Positions 3,789-33,153 of a DNA stretch of 40,539 nt are shown here, in pieces; positions within the stretch are counted from its first letter, which is position 1; the number at the start of each line of letters is the position of its first letter. Position numbers and translations under genes: made by a program. A model generated the notes under the pieces. It did not search any database, was not told the origin of the DNA, and worked only from the letters and a program-made list of their open reading frames with translations. This DNA is from Lentisphaeria bacterium (GTDB taxonomy: Bacteria; Verrucomicrobiota; Lentisphaeria; Victivallales; UBA1829), in the NCBI GenBank assembly GCA_017503545.1, contig JAFVSW010000072.1, positions 1-40,539 of the forward strand, given 5' to 3'.

Positions 3789-4727
3789 ATGATAACAACT
3801 CAGAATCTTACCCGTAAGTTCGGTACCAACCGTGGCGTATTTGATCTTAATCTGCATGTACCGAAAGGGGCAATTTACGGTTTTATCGGTCATAATGGCG
3901 CAGGGAAGACGACTGCGATCAAAATGATGTGCGGCCTCCTCAAACCCACTTCCGGTACGATCAAGATCGGTGATTATGAGGTCGTACCGAAAAATCTGCC
4001 GAAAATCAAACAATTAATCGGATATATGCCGGACATCACCGGTGTTTATGAGCAGATGAGTGTCTGGGAATTCCTGGACTTTTACGGCGCCGCTTTCAAA
4101 ATCCCGCCGAAACAGCGCAAAGAACGGATCGAAGCCGTCCTCGCTGTCACCAATGCCGAAGCCATGATCGATTATCAGGTCGCCAGCCTTTCCCGCGGTA
4201 TGAGACAGAAAGTCGGGCTTGCCAAAACTTTGATTCATGATCCGGAAGTGTTGATCCTGGACGAACCTGCCGGCGGATTGGATCCCCATGCCCGTGTGGA
4301 AATGCGCCGGACCATCAAAGAATTGAAAAATCTTGGCAAAACCATTTTGCTTTCCAGTCATATCCTCCCGGAATTGGCATCGATTTGCGATGTGGTCGGG
4401 ATCCTGAACAAAGGAAAACTTCTGGCACAGGGAACGGTCAAAGAAATCAACGATATGCTCCACGAAACGCTTTCCATTTCCGTAACGGTCGATTCTGATC
4501 TGGAAAAAGCAATGGCATTGACCAAACCGCTGGATGGTGTGGTTTCCGTACAGATGAGTGATATCAATGAATTTTTCATCAATTACCGCGGGCCCCGCGA
4601 ATCTGCAGGGGATATCCTGCTGTATCTGATGGAAAACGGTGTCCGTGTCAGATGGTTTGCGGAAAATGAAGCGGATCTGGAAAATGTATATTTGAACATC
4701 ACTCAGGATAACGGCGGGGAGGAATGA
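3789..4727 (+). CDS. ABC transporter ATP-binding protein (ABC-2 exporter type)
   Basis: This 312-residue ABC ATPase couples ATP hydrolysis to transport through the permease encoded just downstream. Walker A is GHNGAGKTT (residues 34-42). The signature is LSRGMRQK (around 133-140). Walker B is VLILDEPAGGLD (around 154-165), and the switch histidine lies in LLSSHILPE. The roughly 90-residue C-terminal extension is usual in the CcmA/GldA-like group that drives ABC-2 permeases. A GGAG stands about 10 nt before the ATG. The permease gene begins 4 nt after the stop, implying translational coupling. The substrate cannot be told from sequence. Confidence 0.93.
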   Translation: MITTQNLTRKFGTNRGVFDLNLHVPKGAIYGFIGHNGAGKTTAIKMMCGLLKPTSGTIKIGDYEVVPKNLPKIKQLIGYMPDITGVYEQMSVWEFLDFYGAAFKIPPKQRKERIEAVLAVTNAEAMIDYQVASLSRGMRQKVGLAKTLIHDPEVLILDEPAGGLDPHARVEMRRTIKELKNLGKTILLSSHILPELASICDVVGILNKGKLLAQGTVKEINDMLHETLSISVTVDSDLEKAMALTKPLDGVVSVQMSDINEFFINYRGPRESAGDILLYLMENGVRVRWFAENEADLENVYLNITQDNGGEE

Positions 4728-4731
4728 TCCG

Positions 4732-6525
4732 ATGTTATTGACAGGCAATCCTATATTCCGCCGGGAATTTCTTTCGGCATGCAGGGCGTGGAAAAGCCGT
4801 ATTCTGATCAGCGGATATCTGCTGGCGTTGGCGGCACTTCTTCTGCTGCTGTGGCCCGCCGGTGGAATTCATTCCGTTGTAACAGAAAATACCCGCGAAA
4901 TCTTTTCCATGTTCTTCGGAATCAATCTGCTGTTGCTGATGCTGATCGTCCCCGCCTTTGCATCCGGCGCAATTACACAGGAACGGGAAAACGAAACCTA
5001 TCAGGCATTGTTCATCACGCCGCTCACCCCCTTCCAAATCATGATTGGAAAACTCTGTTCTTCCGTTCTGATGCTGTTGATCCTGACCATACTGGCACTG
5101 CCCATGGCTTCCATGTGTGCTTTGACCGGCGGGTTGGATTTGCCCAGAATGTTACGGATCAGTTCCATTCTGTTTACAGCAGCGATTGCATACGGCTTGA
5201 TCGGACTGGCATGCAGTTCCGTCTGCAAACGCACAAGTTCTGCAATTTTCCTGACTTATGTTTACCTGATTCTGTTTGCCGGGGCAACCTGGCTGCCCAA
5301 TGCATTGCTGGCAAATCTGCTGCCGTCATTCAGTTTCCTCTGGCAGGGAATCCGTTCCATCAGTCCGTTCGATGCACTGGCATATCTGCTATATCCGGAA
5401 CAATACCGCAGCAGTATGTCGATTGTACTGACAGAAGGCTCCACAGCGGCAATCGTATTGAATCCGTATTACTTATACCTGTTCTTTTCCGGCGTGACCG
5501 CGGTGATTGCATTTATCATTTTCTACCGGAATGTGAAACGCCCGCCCCAATCCGGCAAGGTGCAGAAAGGCAATGTATACACCGAAAAGAAAATTTTTAT
5601 CAAGCGGAAATTGACCTTCCCGTTTTATCTGCTTGACCCGTTACGCCGGAAAAAGCCCATCGGAAAATTCCGCAATCCGGTATTTGTCGCGGAAATGCGC
5701 AGTAAATTGTTCTCCAATCCCCAATTTGTACTCCGGTCTGTCTCGGCGATCCTGATCATCAGTATTCTGCTTATGACCTTGATTGCTGCACAATTTTCCG
5801 AGCAGCTGGATGCCAATGCGGTCCGTGTCGCCGCGATTCTGTTCCAACTGGGCGTGGTAACACTTCTGGCACCCGGTGTCAGCAGCAGTTTGATTACGGA
5901 AGAAATTTCCTGCGGAACATTTCAGGCATTGCGTATGACAACGTTATCGCCTTTGACCTTGATCATCGGGAAACTGAAAGCCACATTTTTCTATGCTATG
6001 ATCTTTATTTTCAGCGGAATCCTTGTTTTCATCACCATGACATATCTGCAAGTGCAGGATGTTGCGGATGAACTGTCTGTCTTTACCGGAAAATTCTGGA
6101 ATGAACTTTCCACCAATATGAGCAATCCCGAATGGTGCGAACAATTCTGCAACATTTACCTGAGTCTGTTTGTCTGGATCGGGATTCTCCTGTTGACCAC
6201 GCTGGTCTGTCTCTGCGCCGGATTGTTTGCCAGTTCCATTGCACGCAATACCTCGCAGGCGACTGCATTCAGTTACGGTTTCACGGGTATTCTGTGCGTT
6301 GTCACTCTGCTGCCTTTGCCGCTGGCGGGAAAATTGACCAGTCGTGCGGCAGGTACGATCCTGGCATGGAATCCCTTTGTGACAGCGATTCAAACTTCCA
6401 GCAATATGTTCCGGGAATATCCGTTGTTCTGGCGGACCCATTTGTGCTGCATGCTGCTGCTGATCGGACTTCTGCTTGCTGCGTCATTTTTCCGGGTTTT
6501 ATACCTGTTCCGTAAACAAAGTTAA
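4732..6525 (+). CDS. ABC-2 type permease with two tandem halves
   Basis: This 597-residue integral membrane protein is the transport channel for the preceding ATPase. Two homologous halves are visible. Each begins with a 'NP.F..E.RS' cytoplasmic segment (GNPIFRREFLSA near the start, RNPVFVAEMRSK near residue 317). Each then has a membrane helix, an 'IT.E...TYQALF/GTFQALR' coupling-helix motif, and a 'P....I.GKL' segment leading into several helices. About twelve membrane spans are expected. Fusion of two six-helix units into one chain is known among ABC-2 permeases paired with a single ATPase. The ATG at 4732 has GGGGAGGA upstream, inside the end of the ATPase gene. Confidence 0.88.
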   Translation: MLLTGNPIFRREFLSACRAWKSRILISGYLLALAALLLLLWPAGGIHSVVTENTREIFSMFFGINLLLLMLIVPAFASGAITQERENETYQALFITPLTPFQIMIGKLCSSVLMLLILTILALPMASMCALTGGLDLPRMLRISSILFTAAIAYGLIGLACSSVCKRTSSAIFLTYVYLILFAGATWLPNALLANLLPSFSFLWQGIRSISPFDALAYLLYPEQYRSSMSIVLTEGSTAAIVLNPYYLYLFFSGVTAVIAFIIFYRNVKRPPQSGKVQKGNVYTEKKIFIKRKLTFPFYLLDPLRRKKPIGKFRNPVFVAEMRSKLFSNPQFVLRSVSAILIISILLMTLIAAQFSEQLDANAVRVAAILFQLGVVTLLAPGVSSSLITEEISCGTFQALRMTTLSPLTLIIGKLKATFFYAMIFIFSGILVFITMTYLQVQDVADELSVFTGKFWNELSTNMSNPEWCEQFCNIYLSLFVWIGILLLTTLVCLCAGLFASSIARNTSQATAFSYGFTGILCVVTLLPLPLAGKLTSRAAGTILAWNPFVTAIQTSSNMFREYPLFWRTHLCCMLLLIGLLLAASFFRVLYLFRKQS

Positions 6526-6553
6526 CCATTTCTTATAGAAGGAGTATCATCAA

Positions 6554-7900
6554 ATGGACAACAAATCCAAACTGGCTGTTGACAGCCTGAACTATCATCG
6601 TTCCCCGATTCCGGGCAAACTCAATGTCATTCCCTCCAAACCCTGTGATACACAGGATGACCTTTCTTTGGCATATACTCCCGGTGTCGGTATCCCCTGT
6701 ATGGAAATCCACGATCATCCGGAAACCGTCTGGGAATATACCGGACGCGGCAACTCCGTTGCTGTCGTTTCTGACGGTACCGCCGTCCTCGGCCTCGGTA
6801 ACATCGGTCCGGAAGCCGGTATGCCCGTGATGGAAGGAAAAGCCGTTCTGTTCAAAAAATTTGCAGGTATCAATGCCGTTCCCCTCTGCCTCGGTCATGT
6901 CTTCAAAGAAGACGGTAAAACCGATCCGGAAAAGGTCATTACCGCTGTCCGTACACTCGAACCCACATTCGGCGGTATCAATCTGGAAGATATCGGCGCA
7001 CCTGCCTGTTTTGCCATTGAACCGGCACTGAAAAAATCCATGTCCATTCCGGTGTTCCATGACGACCAGCACGGTACTGCAATCATTTCTCTCTCCGGTA
7101 TCCTCAACGCACTGAAAGTCGTCGGCAAAAAGATCGAAGACTGCAAATTCGTGATGAACGGTGCCGGTGCCGCCGGGATCGCCTGTGCCGAATATTATGT
7201 TTCCGCCGGTGCAAACAGAGATAATTTCACCATTTGCGACTCCAAAGGTGTGATCCATGCCGGAAGAACCGATCTCAATGAACAGAAAAAGAGATTCGCT
7301 CATGTCACAGAAGACCGCACTCTTGCCGATGCCATCCGCGGTGCTGACGTCTTTATCGGCGTTTCCGTTGCCGGTGCATTGACCGGTGATATGGTCAAAA
7401 CCATGGCGAAAGATGCCATCGTCCTCGCTATGGCAAACCCGACACCTGAAATTTACCCCGATGAAGCACTTGCTGCCGGTGCCGCCGTTGCATGTACCGG
7501 ACGCTCCGACTTCTGCAACCAGGTCAACAACGTTCTCGGCTTCCCCGGCATCTTCCGCGGTGCCCTTGACTGCCGTGCAAAAGATATCAATGAAGCAATG
7601 AAACTGGCTGCTTCCAAAGCCCTCTCCGGAATCGTTTGCGAACCCATGCCCGCTGATATCAAAGCTAAATTGGCAGCTGCCTACCCCGCAGAAGCCGCAA
7701 AAGGTGTCTTTGATGGCGAAATTCCGTTGAAAGCATCCTTTGTGATCCCGAAACCCTTTGACCCCCGGGTTGTACCCCGCGTCGCTCGTTATGTGGTGGA
7801 AGCCGCTATGAAGACCGGTGTGGCTCAGATTATGATCGATGACCTGGATGCCTACGAAAAATCCGTGGCAGAACGGATCGCAGTTGCTCTGAAAGCCTGA
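6554..7900 (+). CDS. malic enzyme (malate oxidoreductase, decarboxylating)
   Basis: This 448-residue enzyme oxidatively decarboxylates malate to pyruvate and CO2 with NAD(P)+. It has the short bacterial form, without the phosphotransacetylase domain of long MaeB proteins. Visible motifs are YTPGVG (41-46, carrying the catalytic tyrosine), [14 protein letters not shown], the metal/substrate motif [10 protein letters not shown] (about residues 167-176) and the nucleotide-binding loop NGAGAAG (202-208). C-terminal motifs include MANPTPEI and the [12 protein letters not shown] segment. Cofactor preference cannot be assigned safely. AAGGAG lies 10 nt before the ATG. The gene is followed after 19 nt by panC and was probably transcribed with it. 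Confidence 0.93.
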
Positions 7901-8869: not shown

Positions 8870-10156
8870 TCAGCGTTTGATCAAGGCGCGTTTCGCAATG
8901 TCAGTACGATGCTGTTCGCCTTCCCATTTGATTTTGGAAACGCCTTCATAAGCACCTTTGATGGCATCTGCCATGTTGGGAGCAACTTTCGTCACAACCA
9001 GAACACGTCCGCCGGAGTTGGCAACGTTACCGTCAGCCTGTGCCGTGGTACCCGCATGGAAAACGATCGCACCGGTCTTTTCCGCTTCTTCAATACCATA
9101 GATGGTATGACCTTTATCCAGAGGACCGGCAGGGTAGCCGCCGGATGCCATCACGATACAAACGGAGGGTTCTTCGCTCCATACCAGATCGGCTTCTGCC
9201 AAACGACATTCTGCGGTTTTGAGCATGACATCATACAGGCTGCTTTTCAGTCTGGGAATCACACATTCGGTTTCCGGGTCGCCGAAACGGACATTGAATT
9301 CCAGAACTTTCGGACCGTCTTTTGTCACCATGATACCGGCATAGATGATGCCGCGGTAATCCATATTATCTTTCTGCACACCGGCAAGGAACCGTTTCAG
9401 AACGGTTTCCGTCACTTCGTCCATAACTTCTTTTGTCACCACCGGAGCGGGAGAGTATGCACCCATGCCGCCGGTATTGGGGCCCATGTCCTCATTCAAC
9501 AGACGTTTGTGGTCCTGAGAACTGACCAGCGGAACAATCGTCTTACCGTCGGTGAGAGCGAGGATGGATGCTTCTTCGCCGATGAGCAATTCTTCAATCA
9601 CAACAACCGCACCGGCATTGCCGAACTGACCGCCGAAGCAATCACGGACCGCCTGAATGGCTTCCGCTTCATTGGCGGCAACGATCACACCTTTACCGGC
9701 TGCCAAACCGTCGGCTTTCACCACGGTTTCTCTGCCGGCGGCATATTCGCTGCGGATATAGGCTTCTGCTTCCGGAGCAGAAGTAAAAGTCTGATAACGG
9801 GCTGTGGGAATGCCATGGCGGACCATGAACTGTTTGGAGAAATCTTTACTGCCTTCCAAACGGGCAGATGCTTTTACCGGACCGAAAACGGGGATCCCGA
9901 CAGCACGGATGGCATCAGCGGCACCGTCACACAAGGGAGCTTCCGGGCCAATCACAGCCAGATCCACCTTTTTTTCTTTTGCGAAAGCAGCCAGTGTTTC
10001 CGGATTCATATTTTCCAGTTTGACACATTCTGCAATCTGTGCAATACCCGGGTTACCCGGTACGCAATAGATCTGATTGACTTCCGGACTTTTCTTCAAG
10101 CCGTAGCAAAGCGCATGTTCGCGTCCGCCATTACCGATGACCAATACATCTGCCAT
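8870..10156 (-). CDS. purD: phosphoribosylamine-glycine ligase (GARS)
   Basis: This 428-residue enzyme ligates phosphoribosylamine and glycine with ATP in the second step of purine synthesis. GNGGREHAL (residues 8-16) is the N-terminal signature. The ATP-grasp region contains VVKADGLAAGKGV, DHKRLLNEDMGPNTGGMGA and the metal-binding EFNVRFGDPETE. The length is normal. ATG 10156 is chosen because GGAG lies 8 nt upstream and the protein then starts at the family's usual MADVLVIG. A longer frame to 10213 adds an unlikely 19-residue tail. Before the island inserted, this gene would have lain about 85 nt downstream of the gspK-like gene, on the same strand. Confidence 0.95.
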   Translation of the reverse strand: MADVLVIGNGGREHALCYGLKKSPEVNQIYCVPGNPGIAQIAECVKLENMNPETLAAFAKEKKVDLAVIGPEAPLCDGAADAIRAVGIPVFGPVKASARLEGSKDFSKQFMVRHGIPTARYQTFTSAPEAEAYIRSEYAAGRETVVKADGLAAGKGVIVAANEAEAIQAVRDCFGGQFGNAGAVVVIEELLIGEEASILALTDGKTIVPLVSSQDHKRLLNEDMGPNTGGMGAYSPAPVVTKEVMDEVTETVLKRFLAGVQKDNMDYRGIIYAGIMVTKDGPKVLEFNVRFGDPETECVIPRLKSSLYDVMLKTAECRLAEADLVWSEEPSVCIVMASGGYPAGPLDKGHTIYGIEEAEKTGAIVFHAGTTAQADGNVANSGGRVLVVTKVAPNMADAIKGAYEGVSKIKWEGEQHRTDIAKRALIKR

Positions 10157-10240: not shown

Positions 10241-10269
10241 TCAGTAAAACATCCATTCCAGATAACGGA
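10241..10269 (-). pseudogene. left boundary repeat: displaced 3' end of the gspK-like gene
   Basis: Bases 10245-10269 are identical to 13668-13692, the last coding bases of the gspK-like gene. Read on the minus strand, this copy still encodes RYLEWMFY and then TGA (10241-10243). The intact gene has the same residues but ends TAT TAA. This copy therefore appears to be the original gene end, cut off by the segment now lying between the two repeats. Confidence 0.8.
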
Positions 10270-10337
10270 ATAAGCTTTCCTAATGACTTTTAATTTTGAA
10301 TCATATCTTCTGCTGAAAACTGTATATGTATAAAGCC

Positions 10338-10358
10338 GAAGCAAGAAAAAATTGCTTC
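10338..10358. other. hairpin in island leader
   Basis: GAAGCAA (10338-10344) pairs with TTGCTTC (10352-10358) around an A-rich 7-nt loop. No T-run follows on either strand, so it is not called a terminator. The rest of 10270-10448 is AT-rich and shows no gene. Confidence 0.4.
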
Positions 10359-10448
10359 AGACACGCGCAACAGTCGTCTAAAACCAGCTCTATTCCCTAA
10401 AACATACAAAAAACTGCTGAAATTTTTCAGATTTTTTTTATTTATGAC

Positions 10449-10477
10449 TTGCAATGTTTATTTACAGGATATACATT
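10449..10477 (+). promoter_or_regulatory. promoter of the island operon
   Basis: TTGCAA (10449-10454), a 17-nt spacer and TACATT (10472-10477) form a plausible sigma70 promoter. It would give a leader of about 55 nt before the first island gene. The placement inside the island, with genes reading away from it, suggests the module carries its own promoter. Confidence 0.45.
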
Positions 10478-10539
10478 AGGAAAGAACTAATTTTGCAAGA
10501 AACATATAAATCTAAATATTTTAATAAGGAGGATCAAAC

Positions 10540-10920
10540 ATAAAGATTTTTGTCAGACTGGTTATTACTTTTGCTTGCGTAAATGCAATTTCAGCTGCGG
10601 TATCAAACTCGAGTGCAGTTGTAACAGCGATTAGCACTGCAAGCGCAAAATGTGGAGCTGTGGCCTCTACACGAGTTCATGGAAATTATACTAATGGTGC
10701 ATTGCAGGCTATGGGGATAAGTTCCATTTCAATGTCAGGACCAATTGTTTCTAATACAGATTTAAGCGCAAATCCGCCTCACAATGGTAAAGGTGATGGA
10801 GAAGCGACCATAACACAAACTGGGGTTTGTAAAGTAGTAAGCGATTCACAAGGAAATGTAAGTACAACTCCGTCATATACAAGTACATCATCCACAAAAG
10901 CTTGTTCAAATGGAGAATAA
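10540..10920 (+). CDS. small secreted Ser/Thr-rich protein with an apparent ATA start
   Basis: The frame reads 126 codons from ATA at 10540. AGGAGG (10527-10532) lies 7 nt upstream, an ideal Shine-Dalgarno position. From there the protein has a clear Sec signal (KIFVRLVITFACVNAISA) and then a Ser/Thr/Ala/Asn-rich mature part with three cysteines, ending STSSTKACSNGE. No ATG, GTG or TTG gives a sensible start: the first GTG (10660) would delete the whole signal sequence. Either this is a rare AUA start or an ATG was lost by one G-to-A change. No family is recognised. The lipoprotein gene follows 33 nt later. Confidence 0.6.
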   Translation: MKIFVRLVITFACVNAISAAVSNSSAVVTAISTASAKCGAVASTRVHGNYTNGALQAMGISSISMSGPIVSNTDLSANPPHNGKGDGEATITQTGVCKVVSDSQGNVSTTPSYTSTSSTKACSNGE

Positions 10921-10953
10921 TACTTCAGACCACAAGACTGGAGTGTAATAAAA

Positions 10954-11391
10954 ATGAGAAAATCAGGTATAATTTATATTCTGCCATTTTTTGCTTTGAG
11001 CCTTTTGTTCTTGCTTGGTTGTTCTGATGATAATCTTCAGAATTCATCATATGCTAAGGTTTATGTTTTTTGGCATCGTCCTGCATTCAATTTATCTGGA
11101 TATGAATTGTTTGTACTGGCTAATTATTCCAGTTCCCATTTTGACAGTAGGCTTAATTACAAGATTGTTCAAAAAACAGTGGACAATACGTCGAAAGTTA
11201 TAGCACCTTCGCCAATAAAAATTGACAACAAAACAACTTATTTTAATCAGTGTGGAACTTATGACATTGAAATCAACGTCCGAGGTGAAGTTAAAAAAAT
11301 ATCGGATTTTTCGTATCAAGGAGAAAATACAGTCATGGTTGCACGAGGATACGGTTGGGCAATGTTCATTTCCCGTGAAAATTGGAAATAA
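10954..11391 (+). CDS. predicted lipoprotein of unknown function
   Basis: This 145-residue protein has a lipoprotein signal: a positively charged start, a hydrophobic core, and the lipobox LLGC with Cys23 as the lipidated residue, followed by SDDN. The mature part is about 120 residues with alternating beta-like segments (KVYVFWHRPAF, TYDIEINVRGEVKKI) and no recognised domain. It could be a small beta-sandwich. The stop overlaps the next start by one base (TAATG), so the two are translationally coupled. Codon use is AT-rich, like the other island genes and unlike the T2SS genes. Confidence 0.7.
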   Translation: MRKSGIIYILPFFALSLLFLLGCSDDNLQNSSYAKVYVFWHRPAFNLSGYELFVLANYSSSHFDSRLNYKIVQKTVDNTSKVIAPSPIKIDNKTTYFNQCGTYDIEINVRGEVKKISDFSYQGENTVMVARGYGWAMFISRENWK

Positions 11392-12239
11392 TGACAATGA
11401 AAAGAATTTACGTTATACTTCTGTTCTCTGCTGTTATAGTTAACCTATATGCGACTTCAGTATCCGGGCATACAATCTTACAAAGAGCTTTTGAACAATC
11501 TGCAAAAAGTAATTTAAAAGTTCAAATGCGTAATCCCTTACCGCCGCGCCCCAAGGAATTAATGATATTACCTTATGCAAACAAGTTAATATTTTATCGA
11601 AAAATAATTGAAAAAGATGTTTGTTTACGAGTTGAGACAGTTAGAACTACTCGTTACAGTAATGAGGTATTGGAAGTCTTCATAAAAAATTCAGAAGGAA
11701 TTTGGGGAATGGCTTCTGATGGTTTTTCTGCGGAAGTCATTGAGGTCCCGTTAGTATGGTTAATAGAGTTAATGTTCACCCCCTTAACGGAAACTGAATT
11801 AGCTTATGCTTCTTATGCGATACCAGTTATAAAAAAATACAATGGACGAAATTGCTATAAGATAGTTGTTAAGTTACCCTATACCGAAGAGTTTTTGCAT
11901 AAGATTACAAAGGAACCCATAGCTGATATTTCAAAAAAGAAATCTTTGTATTTGTCTGAACGACCATTTTTTTATGAATTTTTGATTGATTGCCAACAGT
12001 ATATTATTGTTGACAGAAAACATTATAATGCAAATGGTAAAACTATTTTTTCTGTGAATTTCGATCATTGGGAATCCTTATCCAATAGTGAGAAATTGTT
12101 TTTAACACCATCTCGCATTGAAGGTAAATTTTTAGTCCATGACTTCTTCTCTAGCCGAATCTTAGAAAAAATGCTTAAGGATCGCAAGACAAGGCAATGG
12201 GATGACCTGTATGCCAAAATTGAAATTTTCATAGATTAG
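11391..12239 (+). CDS. exported LolA-like protein ending at an in-frame amber codon
   Basis: This 282-residue protein has a Sec signal (KRIYVILLFSAVIVNLYA). The layout of a long first strand (KLIFYRKIIEKDVCLRVETV), a central YNGRNCYKIVVKLP strand and a closing ECF-like pair of strands (YIIVDRKHYNANGKTIFSVN) resembles the LolA/LolB outer-membrane lipoprotein-sorting fold. That match is by pattern only. ATG 11391 is chosen because it overlaps the preceding stop as TAATG. The frame stops at TAG 12237-12239. Without that stop it would continue directly through a hydrophobic helix and basic tail to 12323, so the gene may be truncated by a nonsense change. Confidence 0.6.
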   Translation: MTMKRIYVILLFSAVIVNLYATSVSGHTILQRAFEQSAKSNLKVQMRNPLPPRPKELMILPYANKLIFYRKIIEKDVCLRVETVRTTRYSNEVLEVFIKNSEGIWGMASDGFSAEVIEVPLVWLIELMFTPLTETELAYASYAIPVIKKYNGRNCYKIVVKLPYTEEFLHKITKEPIADISKKKSLYLSERPFFYEFLIDCQQYIIVDRKHYNANGKTIFSVNFDHWESLSNSEKLFLTPSRIEGKFLVHDFFSSRILEKMLKDRKTRQWDDLYAKIEIFID

Positions 12240-12242
12240 TTT

Positions 12243-12323
12243 TTGGAGAACGGCTCTGTATTCTTTTTGATAATTGCTTTTATTGCGATAACTACCGTAA
12301 TTATTATAAAACGTAGAAAATAA
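12243..12323 (+). CDS. 26-codon single-helix tail, in frame after the amber stop
   Basis: Immediately after TAG 12237-12239, in the same frame, lie TTT and then TTG. The 26 codons from TTG encode MENGSVFFLIIAFIAITTVI, then IIKRRK and TAA. This is one membrane helix with a basic cytoplasmic end, the form of a C-terminal membrane anchor. It could be the severed C-terminus of the LolA-like protein, a readthrough extension, or a tiny independent TTG-start gene. TTTTTGGAG precedes the codons but gives no well-spaced ribosome site, which makes independent translation less likely. The rest of 12324-12421 shows no gene. Confidence 0.45.
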   Translation: MENGSVFFLIIAFIAITTVIIIKRRK

Positions 12324-12421
12324 AAGTGTCTATCAACAAAATATTACATGTCATTAATATTGAGAGTAATGTATTTTTAAATAATTAATAATTCTTGACA
12401 CTAAAAACTGGGAAATAGTCT

Positions 12422-12652
12422 ATGTATCACTATCTTATGCACGAACGCTGGCAATGGTTTTTTGCAACGCCTAATATGTGCGCGGCATTCTTGACTGTTT
12501 GTCTTGGTATGTTATTGACTGTACTGATGACAACTAAGCTGATTAATGCAGTCAAAAACAAAAATCGGAAATACTGTCGATTTTACTATTTAAAATACGA
12601 AAATCAAATTACTGACATTATTTTTAACTTGATAAACAGAGGCAATGATTAA
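12422..12652 (+). CDS. small membrane protein of unknown function
   Basis: This 76-residue protein has one hydrophobic helix at about residues 18-44 (CAAFLTVCLGMLLTVLMTTK) followed by a basic stretch (VKNKNRKYCRFYY), predicting a cytoplasmic C-terminus. The upstream GGGAAA is a weak ribosome site. The next gene begins 4 nt after its stop, suggesting co-translation with the hydrolase-like protein. No family is recognised. Codon use matches the island. Confidence 0.5.
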   Translation: MYHYLMHERWQWFFATPNMCAAFLTVCLGMLLTVLMTTKLINAVKNKNRKYCRFYYLKYENQITDIIFNLINRGND

Positions 12653-12655
12653 GCA

Positions 12656-13612
12656 ATGAACTACTTGCAAATTATTATTAAAAACAAAAGAATAATACTG
12701 ATATTACTTTTGATTTCCATAATTTCATTGTTATTGCATGTGCTCTCTCAAGAAAGATTTGTACCTTATAATATACAGGAAACAATAATCCATAAAAATA
12801 TTGAAGGAAAAAATAAATATTTTATATATGGAACATTTACAATAAAAAGTCAATGTTTTCTTAACCCGACGACAAAAGGTATGTATATTGTTCCAGTAAA
12901 TTCAAAAGGAAAAGTATTAGAAGAAACAAAAAATATATTATTTTATGCACCTTTTAATGGTGAAGATGGTGCTACCGCATATGAGCGCTACGCTTGGCTT
13001 AAAGTTTTTGCAGAACAACATAATTTTGCAATTTTCTCACTTCGAATAAAAGCAGACACTTATAGCACAAATGAAAAATCTAAATACTATATTTACAAAG
13101 AGGCTGGATGGTTTTCCGGTATTTTTAAGATACAATACTTTTTACAAAAAAGATTCAACCTTACAAAAAACAAATTATGTGCAATAGGTCAATCTTCAGG
13201 GTGCTCTATGATACAACGAATGGTAGTTGAAATGCCTGATAAGTTTGCTGTAGCTGCCGGACACGGTGGCAGTAGATTTTCGCCCTATATACCAAATCAA
13301 AAATTTCCACCTTTCATATTATCTTCAACTGTTGGCGACAACACCAATATGCAAAATCGAGAAAATTATGTAGCTGCGACAAAAGCAAATATAAAACTTT
13401 GGTATATGGAAACTCATCCTATCAACAATAAGGATTTGCACAGTGCAAGTAACGACGTTTTCAGGGTTTTAACCGCATTTATTCTTTCTGCTGTTGACAC
13501 AAACAGCGAAGAAAAAGATATTTTCATTCGTAAATTTGAAAATATGCCTCTATTTCAATATCCATTGAAAAAAAATAAAAAGCTTGCTCCGCAAATAGAT
13601 CAGTCTCTGTGA
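12656..13612 (+). CDS. membrane-anchored alpha/beta-hydrolase-like protein
   Basis: This 318-residue protein has an N-terminal membrane helix (ILILLLISIISLLLHVL, about residues 14-31) and an extracytoplasmic domain. LFYAPFNGEDGA is the first core strand with an oxyanion-type loop. GQSSGC (178-183) is the nucleophile elbow, with Ser180 as the expected nucleophile, followed by a helix and AAGHGG. The histidine in METHP or DLHSAS is the candidate third catalytic residue. This resembles bacterial esterase/depolymerase-type hydrolases acting outside the cytoplasm. The substrate is unknown. It is the last gene of the island; 55 nt later comes the gspK-like gene end on the other strand. Confidence 0.65.
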   Translation: MNYLQIIIKNKRIILILLLISIISLLLHVLSQERFVPYNIQETIIHKNIEGKNKYFIYGTFTIKSQCFLNPTTKGMYIVPVNSKGKVLEETKNILFYAPFNGEDGATAYERYAWLKVFAEQHNFAIFSLRIKADTYSTNEKSKYYIYKEAGWFSGIFKIQYFLQKRFNLTKNKLCAIGQSSGCSMIQRMVVEMPDKFAVAAGHGGSRFSPYIPNQKFPPFILSSTVGDNTNMQNRENYVAATKANIKLWYMETHPINNKDLHSASNDVFRVLTAFILSAVDTNSEEKDIFIRKFENMPLFQYPLKKNKKLAPQIDQSL

Positions 13613-13663
13613 CTTGCATTTTTGACACAGTGATTGGTGATTTCCTAGAACGTTATTTCCTCT

Positions 13664-14758
13664 TTAATAAAACATCCATTCCAGATAACGGATGATGTTA
13701 TTTGACGGTTTCAACTGATTGACACCGGTCCAGGTGAATACCAGCCGCTTGGACGGCATTTTTTCTTCCCCGGCATAGGGTTCCACTTCCACTGTGTAGG
13801 CATTGCCGGGAGTCCACATCAAATACGAACTGTTGCGGATTTTCTGGAATAACGTGGAGTCGATAGCGTCAGAAAGTTTGACTTTTTCTTTCTGATACAG
13901 GCGGATCCCTTCCCGGATTTCTGCAAGTTCACTGTCTTCCAGATTAAAGACCCGTTTCAGGTACAGATCCGGCGCACCGAACAGATTGGGCGAATTGGCA
14001 AAAAGATTGGTCCGGCGTGTCGTCGTGCCGCCGCGATTGTTGCGGACTGTTGTCTGTATGGTCATCATGGAATCCGGAGGGATCACCCGGATCGCAGAAA
14101 GTCTCCCGTTTTTATCGGGGGGGAACAATTCCATAAATTCAGGCAGATAAAACAATTCCTCCCGATACTGGAAGTTGGCATTGCGGGGCAGCGGCGTTTG
14201 ATTATGCTCCTCATATTCGCCTTTTTCCCATGCTTCGCCGGAAACCACATCGTTACTGTCCGTATAATCATTGATCTGATCCCGGAGTTTTTCTATCACA
14301 TCCTGATATTCCGTATCGGTGGCACTGTTCATCCGCAAACGGTTGAGCGTGGTATTGCGCTGTTGACGGGAAAAATCCAATCCGGCGGCGGCGTCGGTAA
14401 TACGGAATTTCACCTGGATACCGTGATAATCCATGGTATGCTCCACACCATCGGGCAGAAAACGCTCATATTCCGTATCACCATAGTCAAAATTCTGATA
14501 AGAAACATTGGGGTGTTTCGTCCGTTCTGCGGCGACCAGCCATTGAATCCGGTTTGCTGCGCCTTCGCAAATGTATTGACTCCGCTGTTGTTTCGTATGC
14601 GCCGCCATGGTGTAGGTGTTCAGCTGGGAAATGCCGATCACTGCAGTCACAATCATGGAACATGCCATGATCAATGCCAATACCGGGATCAATGCCGATC
14701 CCGATTCGCCGCGACGACGCTTAACGGTGACCTGCGCCAGATGCTGTGTTCGATGCAT
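13664..14758 (-). CDS. gspK: T2SS minor pseudopilin GspK-like protein
   Basis: This 364-residue protein is predicted to sit at the pseudopilus tip as the large minor pseudopilin. After a basic start it has SGSALIPVLALIMACSMIVTAVI, the N-terminal helix of GspK-type proteins, which lack the Glu5 of other pseudopilins. The long soluble part contains helix-rich segments with a SAM-like pattern (NLEDSELAEIREGIRLYQ). AGGAGGTGATG lies just before the ATG. The gene overlaps the preceding gspJ-like gene by 38 nt. Its 3' end has been rebuilt by the boundary repeat of the island, leaving the last eight residues unchanged. Confidence 0.75.
   Translation of the reverse strand: MHRTQHLAQVTVKRRRGESGSALIPVLALIMACSMIVTAVIGISQLNTYTMAAHTKQQRSQYICEGAANRIQWLVAAERTKHPNVSYQNFDYGDTEYERFLPDGVEHTMDYHGIQVKFRITDAAAGLDFSRQQRNTTLNRLRMNSATDTEYQDVIEKLRDQINDYTDSNDVVSGEAWEKGEYEEHNQTPLPRNANFQYREELFYLPEFMELFPPDKNGRLSAIRVIPPDSMMTIQTTVRNNRGGTTTRRTNLFANSPNLFGAPDLYLKRVFNLEDSELAEIREGIRLYQKEKVKLSDAIDSTLFQKIRNSSYLMWTPGNAYTVEVEPYAGEEKMPSKRLVFTWTGVNQLKPSNNIIRYLEWMFY
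13668..13692. repeat. right boundary repeat of the island, within the gspK-like 3' end
   Basis: This 25-nt sequence is identical to 10245-10269 and supplies the last codons (RYLEWMF, and most of Tyr) of the gspK-like gene. Sequence identity stops abruptly on both sides, as expected for a recombination core. Confidence 0.8.
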
Positions 14759-29927: not shown

Positions 29928-30135
29928 AACATCTCCTTTCCTTGGACTTTTTATCGTTCATCCGTACATTAGCATAGTAAATTGTAAAATGCAAGAAAAA
30001 AATCCAGAAAAAATCAAATAAATTTTCCCGTTTTCAAAAGTTTTCAGAACCAATTCCCTAATACCCCATATGATCGAAGTCAAACAGCATAATAGAAAAC
30101 TCTCCCGTCCGAAAACACAAAGATGAATCGATACC

Positions 30136-30282
30136 CAGTGCCAACGGCACGGCACAGTAAAGCCCAGGGTGAGCGCAGCGTAACCCAAGGGATAAGACAT
30201 AAGACCTCGCATAATGACAGCCTCCGCGTTGACGGCATTTCGTTAGAAACGGACGGCATCGTGGAGGCAATGACGTCTCCCC
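30136..30282. repeat. palindromic repeat, copy A
   Basis: This ~147-nt sequence recurs nearly unchanged at 33006-33153 in the same orientation. It contains GTGCCAACGGCAC (a short palindrome), CCAGGGT...AACCC, and a nested hairpin from GCCTCC (left) to GGAGGC (right) enclosing TTTCGTTAGAAA. Small open frames across it are coincidental. With copy B it brackets the secreted nuclease-like module. 29928-30135 is promoter-like AT-rich sequence with no gene. Confidence 0.8.
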
Positions 30283-30348
30283 CTTCCCACGAAATGTATG
30301 CAATATCAATAGTTTATAAAAAAATTATAAATTATCGCATATTTTAAC

Positions 30349-31493: not shown

Positions 31494-32993
31494 ATGTTAT
31501 CTTACAAAAAAACAATTTCATTAATTATGTTGGGACTTTGTGCAACCCAGTTGAAAGCCGCTGAATACGGGACTTTTGAAAGTTTTTACAGTTCCGGAGG
31601 ACTTGCATGGTGGGAATGGGGCCTTATTATTGCCGGCACAATAGCTGTTGGAGTTCTAACCTTTATCACTTGGGGCGGTACAGCTCCTGCTTGGATGGTT
31701 ACGGTAGGAACGTGGATTGGATCAACCATAGGACTACATGGTATTGCAGCAGCAAACTTTGGCTTGGCTTTGCTTGGAGGTGGAGCTGTGGCAGCAGGAG
31801 GTTTGGGCGTTGCAGGTGGTGTTGCCGTGTTAACAGCAGCTATGACATTTGGCGTTGAAACTACACTTTCTTACGGAACTGATATTGCGCTCGAGAAATG
31901 GAATCAGGCAAAATTTGTTGAAGCCAACAAAGAAATGTTGACTCTCCCATTACCACGTAACAAAAAAGGCGGAATAGCATATCGAACTGCGATTAACTAT
32001 TTGAAAGAAAACTTGAAAGAAAACAAAGAAAAAGGTATAGATATATCAACACCGGAAAATCAGCATGTTTTAAAACGTGCCTCTGAAATTTTATACGAAA
32101 AAATGCAATCTGAAAAGGATAAAGATTACATTTTGAAAAATAAAACCTTGCTTGCATTGCTGTATTTTCAGACTAATAATTATTCCAAAGCGAGCAAAGA
32201 AGCCCAAGAGGCAATGATACTTGCAGATGAAATACGCGAAAAAAGAACAATGTCTTCTTATATTTGGGCTATATCAGAAATTGCAAATCCTGAAAAAAAT
32301 TGTACAAAAGAAACAATTCAAGCCTTGCGGATTGCTTATTATCACGAACCGGATTATGAACTGATTCCGATTATGACAGCATGCGCAATGGACCGATTCA
32401 TGTACAGATATCATTACGGAGAATTATCGATTGATCACATGAGATATTTCTTGGGCATCATAACTAATCAACAGATTGATAAAAAATTATCAGCCGTATC
32501 TTTGGAAATTTTTGTTACCCGTTGCCTAGTTGAATTGAAACGGACAAAACAGGATATTTACATCGTTACAAAAGATGAAAGCATGATGGGAGACAAGAAA
32601 ATTGTTGATGAACTCAGAAATCGTTTTGAACGCCATAAAGATCTTGTTTCCATGTTACAAAAAAATGCTTTGCCAATAGTTTACAAATTACAGGATAAAT
32701 TCCCCAAAGAAAGCAAAACAAAGCCTGAACTCCTGACTTCTCTACTGAACAATTATTTCCTCGATCTTGCAAAATTGGAGAAACAGATTCAATACAAACA
32801 ATACGATATTGGACCTGCTCCCAAAAAAGAAGAAGAGGATACTAAAAACAACATTTTGTACTGGATTCTGGGTGGAATCGCAATTCTGATGCTGACAGCC
32901 TTCGGAAGTCTGTTTTATATCAAGAAACGGCGAAAAACACAAACGGAAGCGAAAAACGCAAATGATGAAACTTCTCAACCAGAGGAACTTTAA
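31494..32993 (+). CDS. exported membrane protein with Gly-rich helices, partner of nuclease-like protein
   Basis: This 499-residue protein has a signal peptide (MLSYKKTISLIMLGLCATQL, cut near KAAE), then a hydrophobic helix (WWEWGLIIAGTIAVGVLTF) and long Gly/Ala-rich hydrophobic segments (LALLGGGAVAAGGLGVAGGV) resembling glycine-zipper pore helices. A helical middle of about 320 residues shows TPR-like pairing (TLLALLYFQTNNYSKASKEA). A C-terminal helix (ILYWILGGIAILMLTAFGSL) ends in KKRRK. No known family is recognised. Its place 11 nt after the nuclease-like gene suggests a partner in delivery, anchoring or immunity, but nothing in the sequence decides which. Confidence 0.6.
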   Translation: MLSYKKTISLIMLGLCATQLKAAEYGTFESFYSSGGLAWWEWGLIIAGTIAVGVLTFITWGGTAPAWMVTVGTWIGSTIGLHGIAAANFGLALLGGGAVAAGGLGVAGGVAVLTAAMTFGVETTLSYGTDIALEKWNQAKFVEANKEMLTLPLPRNKKGGIAYRTAINYLKENLKENKEKGIDISTPENQHVLKRASEILYEKMQSEKDKDYILKNKTLLALLYFQTNNYSKASKEAQEAMILADEIREKRTMSSYIWAISEIANPEKNCTKETIQALRIAYYHEPDYELIPIMTACAMDRFMYRYHYGELSIDHMRYFLGIITNQQIDKKLSAVSLEIFVTRCLVELKRTKQDIYIVTKDESMMGDKKIVDELRNRFERHKDLVSMLQKNALPIVYKLQDKFPKESKTKPELLTSLLNNYFLDLAKLEKQIQYKQYDIGPAPKKEEEDTKNNILYWILGGIAILMLTAFGSLFYIKKRRKTQTEAKNANDETSQPEEL

Positions 32994-33005
32994 TCAATTG
33001 AGAAT

Positions 33006-33153
33006 CAGTGCCAACGGCACGGCACAGTAAAGCCCAGGGTGACGCGCAGCGTAACCCTGGGTATAAGTCCCTTGAACTCGCATAATGACAGCCTCCGCGT
33101 TGACGGCGTTTCGTTAGAAACGGACGGCATCGTGGAGGCAATGACGTCTCCCC
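33006..33153. repeat. palindromic repeat, copy B
   Basis: This is the second copy of the ~147-nt repeat at 30136-30282, in the same orientation, with differences mainly in the centre. This copy has a better hairpin: CCAGGGT G ACGC, loop GCA, GCGT A ACCCTGG. The 3' hairpin is intact (GCCTCC to GGAGGC). It lies 13 nt after the stop of the 499-residue gene. No gene is seen in 33154-33235. Confidence 0.8.

Follow-up and report, generated by a model that had tools for sequence, protein, structure and literature searches.

The window, a 40,539-nt stretch of DNA from a Lentisphaeria bacterium (genome G000), carries foreign AT-rich DNA between two copies of a short direct repeat, one of which forms the present 3' end of a gspK-like pseudopilin gene. 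The best reading of this arrangement is an insertion that regenerated the end of the gene. As for the route, there is about an even chance that a horizontally acquired cassette of five genes (g1 to g5) entered by an integrase-free crossover at the gspK 3' end through a short shared sequence. Related insertions in G000, in G108 (a genome from another family of the same order) and in G066 (likewise of this order) point to integrase-free entry of cassettes at gene ends.

The module may be considered in terms of a small secreted PPHNG protein, a lipoprotein, an RseB/LolA-like protein, an O-antigen-ligase-like protein and a hydrolase. Elements that integrate at the ends of protein-coding genes are already known (trmE, dusA); what gives the present case more than local interest is that related module genes recur at other duplicated gene ends. 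If the reading is true, small modules could spread in this poorly studied order without an integrase of their own and leave arbitrary target genes intact, and searches relying on integrases or tRNA genes would miss such cassettes. The insertions in G108 and G066 are related to the one in the window but different from it, which makes the mechanism testable.

The gspK 3' end and its duplicated sequence

The initial annotation had placed a perfect 25-nt direct repeat on either side of the segment, and its coordinates proved exact (Table 1). The two copies of the repeat, TAAAACATCCATTCCAGATAACGGA, are identical and in direct orientation, and the chance expectation for such a pair in the window is about 1e-6. 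A scan of the entire 4.06-Mb G000 draft, allowing up to three mismatches, found these two copies only, which excludes the occurrence at many unrelated sites that would have spoken against insertion.

Table 1. Coordinates of the features of the gspK-purD region in the window
Feature	Coordinates	Strand	Remarks
purD, pre-insertion downstream neighbour of gspK	8870..10156	-	
Left repeat copy, gspK 3'-end relic	10245..10269		beside purD; minus strand continues TAC TGA
Inserted AT-rich segment	10270..13667		32.8% GC
g1, small secreted protein, conserved PPHNGxGxG motif	10543..10920	+	62% identical to L096 7914-8303 (G108)
g2, 145-aa putative lipoprotein, LLGC lipobox	10954..11391	+	69% identical to G108 homologue
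g3, RseB/LolA-like periplasmic protein, premature TAG	11394..12239	+	homologues, predicted fold
g4, 76-aa remnant of O-antigen-ligase-like (Wzy_C) protein	12422..12652	+	G108 homologue
g5, alpha/beta-hydrolase-like protein	12656..13612	+	54% identical to G108 homologue
Right repeat copy, present 3' end of gspK	13668..13692		ends TAT TAA
gspK-like pseudopilin gene, 3' end duplicated	13664..14758	-	

On the minus strand, the right copy reads CGT TAT CTG GAA TGG ATG TTT TAT TAA and constitutes the end of gspK. The eight residues encoded by the left copy are the same, RYLEWMFY, but the reading ends TAC TGA in place of TAT TAA, precisely as had been read from the sequence at the outset. A GspK carboxy terminus of the form xYLEWMFY is conserved throughout the order, with YLEWMFF, YLQWIFY, FYEWMFF and similar endings in relatives. 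Since the relatives share this terminal motif, the repeated piece is a real, native gene end. When the two flanks are joined in silico, an intact gspK results that ends with the stop TAC TGA, 86 nt before purD, with both genes on the minus strand. The direct repeats lie at the 3' end of a regenerated gene, and the junction of gspK with purD would be the ancestral arrangement.

The initial annotation had proposed a search of relatives for an empty site, with gspK directly followed by purD. No such allele was present in the genomes examined, and the two genes are apart in every relative examined, even where contigs are long, as in G036 and G045. In the nearest species, G001 of the same genus, GspK is only 53% identical and is encoded on a different contig from purD; the gene that follows gspK there is ferredoxin-like and in the opposite orientation. 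A search of a wider collection of genome contigs for close gspK relatives or copies of the gspK end gave no match, and neither a circular form nor a population variant of the cassette was seen. Since no empty allele was observed, we infer the insertion from the structure of the locus.

The inserted genes and their relatives

The segment between the repeats is AT-rich, as first described, against 49.6% GC in the flanks. Its five open reading frames all lie on the plus strand, and three of them carry lesions. The position of the g1 start codon is occupied by ATA where the G108 homologue has ATG, which from this comparison is a probable lesion. In g3, the in-frame TAG precedes a carboxy terminal membrane anchor, the unused sequence of which extends to about 12323. 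The g4 frame corresponds over its first 40 residues to the start of an O-antigen-ligase-like protein; the G108 version has 482 aa and a Wzy_C domain. Thus, the cargo in G000 is decaying, and with g1, g3 and g4 damaged the cassette is probably immobile now. No curated family was matched by g1, g2 or g3. An AlphaFold model of g3 (mean pLDDT 84) resembles RseB/MucB and LolA, with RseB among the best PDB matches (E about 2e-7); the predicted structure of g5 was too poor in quality for use.

A Pfam scan of the five cargo genes and the list of open reading frames revealed neither a site-specific recombinase nor a transposase, and a repeat search found no pair of terminal inverted repeats at the ends of the segment. 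The segment therefore lacks both hallmarks of a transposon or insertion sequence. Carriage by a phage was considered and rejected, as neither a g5 relative nor the gspK end was present in viral contigs. Elsewhere in the window, a second pair of direct repeats of about 160 nt (30124-30283 and 32993-33153) surrounds an AT-rich 2.7-kb segment with open reading frames of 276 and 499 aa. It was not taken for a comparable insertion, as the repeat is dispersed and the genome contains about 50 copies of it; many of these lie at contig ends, and the repeat probably breaks assemblies.

Two of the module genes, g3 and g5, were searched for in the 35 other genomes of the same family, and none of these has a close homologue of either. 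In G108, g1 to g5 are present in the same order (locus L096), with identities as listed in Table 1 for g1, g2 and g5, 51% for g3, and 83% for g4, where the figure covers the first 23 residues only. The G108 module precedes a capA-like gene, and its far end abuts a second copy of the 5' part of capA. The two copies span 189 nt and are 89% identical. Their 20 mismatches are clustered, with a single one over the initial 104 nt and the other 19 over the remaining 85 (P about 3e-6 under a uniform distribution); third codon positions account for 15 of them. From the sequences, this pattern suggests a crossover within a shared identical stretch between diverged alleles and not a target-site duplication, since newly duplicated target DNA would begin without differences. 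Of the two copies, the stranded one is slightly more similar to the capA of two congeners; the margin is small, and this would fit the stranded copy being the native one. The gene upstream of capA is a different one in G111 and G126, so more than one kind of rearrangement has affected the G108 locus. An identical promoter-like stretch (ATATAAT...AAGTGGCAAGTTTGCAACA) was observed upstream of capA and of an SDF transporter gene in L096 (7720-7753 and 13603-13637), possibly as a shared operator.

Relatives of g3 are also found within duplicated sequence in G066. A g3-like gene and a radical-SAM/SPASM gene are flanked by 105-nt duplicates (98%) of the 3' end of an unrelated gene, one with a 666-aa open reading frame, and the copies differ in their final codons (ELNL then stop versus ELNINCL then stop). 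G081, a congener of G066, has the same gene with no insert. In G066 another g3-like gene follows rplQ, and on either side of it stands a 47-nt copy of the rplQ terminator region. Overall, 6 of 29 loci of the g3 family are enclosed by direct repeats with a spacing of at most 6 kb, compared with 8% of random intervals drawn from 529 kb of other sequence from the same genomes. The excess is modest (P about 0.03, by our own estimate). Most loci of the family are without repeats and belong to ordinary chromosomal clusters, at 11 places in G045 for instance, and the repeat pairs at L164 and L162 are weak.

Several other loci were noted during this survey. At L104 (G066:C5, 4023-13597), g4-like, serine hydrolase, g5-like, prepilin-like, g3-like and radical-SAM/SPASM genes form a cluster with a gene-end fragment in its middle. 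At L115 (G045), g1 to g3 occur with two open reading frames that, read by eye, have cysteine motifs of the radical-SAM type. L127 (G111:C109) has 97-nt copies (95%) of a terminator-like sequence at 3952-4048 and 6520-6615 around two transporter genes, one of the SDF type and the other, by its look, of the BASS type. L169 (G045:C1, 3286001+) has 183-nt direct repeats (85%) at 1823-2005 and 4111-4291 around a segment of 30% GC with two membrane-protein open reading frames, adjoined by insertion-sequence genes. L160 (G105:C132) is a 5.5-kb contig with identical 141-nt ends and RHS repeats beside a broken g3-like gene. It was considered as a circular cassette and rejected, as the RHS repeats make an assembly-graph loop more likely.

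How the segment may have entered

In the preferred reading, incoming circular or tandem DNA would have carried a short gspK-end sequence, and a single crossover between this sequence and the resident gspK end would have integrated it, probably by way of a circular intermediate. As a result, gspK would keep a complete end derived from the element (TAT TAA), while the original end (TAC TGA) would be stranded next to purD. For this step, host or illegitimate recombination acting on the shared sequence would suffice, and no dedicated integrase need have been present at the time of insertion. The patterns in G000, G108 and G066 are all ones that such recombination would yield. Several points count against it. 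No empty site or circular form was seen, an identity of 25 nt is short for RecA, the excess of repeats at g3 loci is modest, the G108 locus has a more complex history, and the octamer ATCTGGAA, common to the targets in G000, G108 and G066, could mean a specific site.

The main rival to an integrase-free entry is a recombinase acting in trans. The segment would then be a site-specific island, placed by a tyrosine recombinase in trans or since lost, with a 25-nt attB at the end of gspK in the manner of SGI1 at trmE; this is possible though doubtful. Such an origin would suit a repeat that is short, perfect and exactly at the gene end, with that end regenerated. G000 encodes four PF00589 recombinases, and beyond the two strongest, presumably XerC/D, there are two more. 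The octamer, read in frame as xAT-CTG-GAA, occurs in the same frame in all three coding-gene repeats (gspK in G000, capA in G108 and the gene with the 666-aa frame in G066); among random window triples, 0.05% have any octamer in common on the same strand. However, the 3.4-kb segment is without a recombinase, related insertions occupy unrelated genes with repeats of 105 to 189 nt, G108 has only two PF00589 recombinases, probably XerC and XerD, and the octamer lies outside the longest identical tract of the G066 repeats. The octamer was also noticed after the fact, encodes a common Leu-Glu pair and is absent from the repeats at L154 and L164; for these reasons integration through a short shared gene-end sequence is preferred. 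A fixed att core was rejected, the octamer being the only shared sequence, and it is very unlikely that a trans-acting recombinase in this order uses ATCTGGAA as a short core to place cassettes at the ends of coding genes that are unrelated to one another. The targets (the gspK 3' end, the 5' part of capA, the 3' end of an unrelated gene and the rplQ terminator) and the repeat lengths differ, which argues against one attachment site. Thus, of the initial proposal of an integrating element with its core in the terminal codons of gspK, the foreign AT-rich DNA and the regenerated gene end stand, while a core specific to gspK is unsupported given the unrelated genes used in G108 and G066. Targeting of hairpins or terminators was likewise rejected: a stem-loop had been flagged over the gspK copy, but only in the rplQ case of G066, which is a real terminator, do the repeats contain dyads stronger than those of random windows.

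A duplication of the target by a transposition-like or repair process, in which the incoming DNA carried no gene-end sequence, would account for repeats of variable length (25, 47, 105 and 189 nt) without a common sequence, a picture that resembles what is described of restriction-modification gene insertions (PMC3031569). It is nevertheless unlikely. While the G000 copies are perfect over 25 nt, the G108 copies show clustered, allele-like differences, mostly at third codon positions, where a fresh duplicate would start with none, and the terminal codons differ between copies in both G000 and G066. Least probable of all is an artefact of assembly or binning, in which the ends of unrelated contigs were joined through the 25-nt sequence. 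G000 is a draft of 353 contigs with 5.6% contamination, and its empty site was not observed. Against this, gene content and order are matched independently in G108, the reading is clean through both flanks, a third copy of the repeat is missing from the genome, and 25 nt is shorter than common assembly k-mers.

Comparison with known systems

The integration of islands within the end of a coding gene, as in G000, has precedents in SGI1, at the 3' end of trmE (PMC8409611), and in the dusA-associated islands, for which restoration of gene function has been suggested (PMC4482086). Such islands carry a tyrosine recombinase gene and keep to a single target gene, whereas the G000 cassette has no recombinase and the targets differ between the related insertions. 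Neither an encoded recombinase nor an attachment site common to related elements, both hallmarks of an integrase island, was found.

Blocks of restriction-modification genes offer a second comparison. As far as the citing source describes them (Nobusato et al. 2000 and Furuta et al. 2010, cited in PMC3031569), they insert with long target duplications of variable length and are likewise free of a transposase. Their cargo is different, and the repeat copies of G000, G066 and G108 resemble distinct alleles of a gene end more than pure target duplicates.

The nearest parallel, from what its published descriptions relate, is the microcin H47 island of E. coli (PMC3191183; PMC5426353), which is likewise small and free of a recombinase gene. 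It is bounded by direct repeats of 148 and 144 bp that are 76% identical, and crossovers occur in several stretches of identity within these imperfect repeats. Its excision is reported to require neither RecA nor any of the 16 known site-specific recombinases of E. coli that were tested. In these accounts, the microcin H47 repeats are not described as the end of a resident gene, unlike the gspK-end repeats of G000; the cargo is also unrelated, and movement has been demonstrated for the island, whereas the G000 cassette is known from sequence alone. The locus in the window resembles the island in having direct repeats that include identical stretches but no gene for a recombinase, and the same pattern occurs at L096 and L104. 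By analogy, the cassette in the window would appear to work like the microcin H47 and restriction-modification insertions and, by the tests made, is not a member of the integrase-island class.
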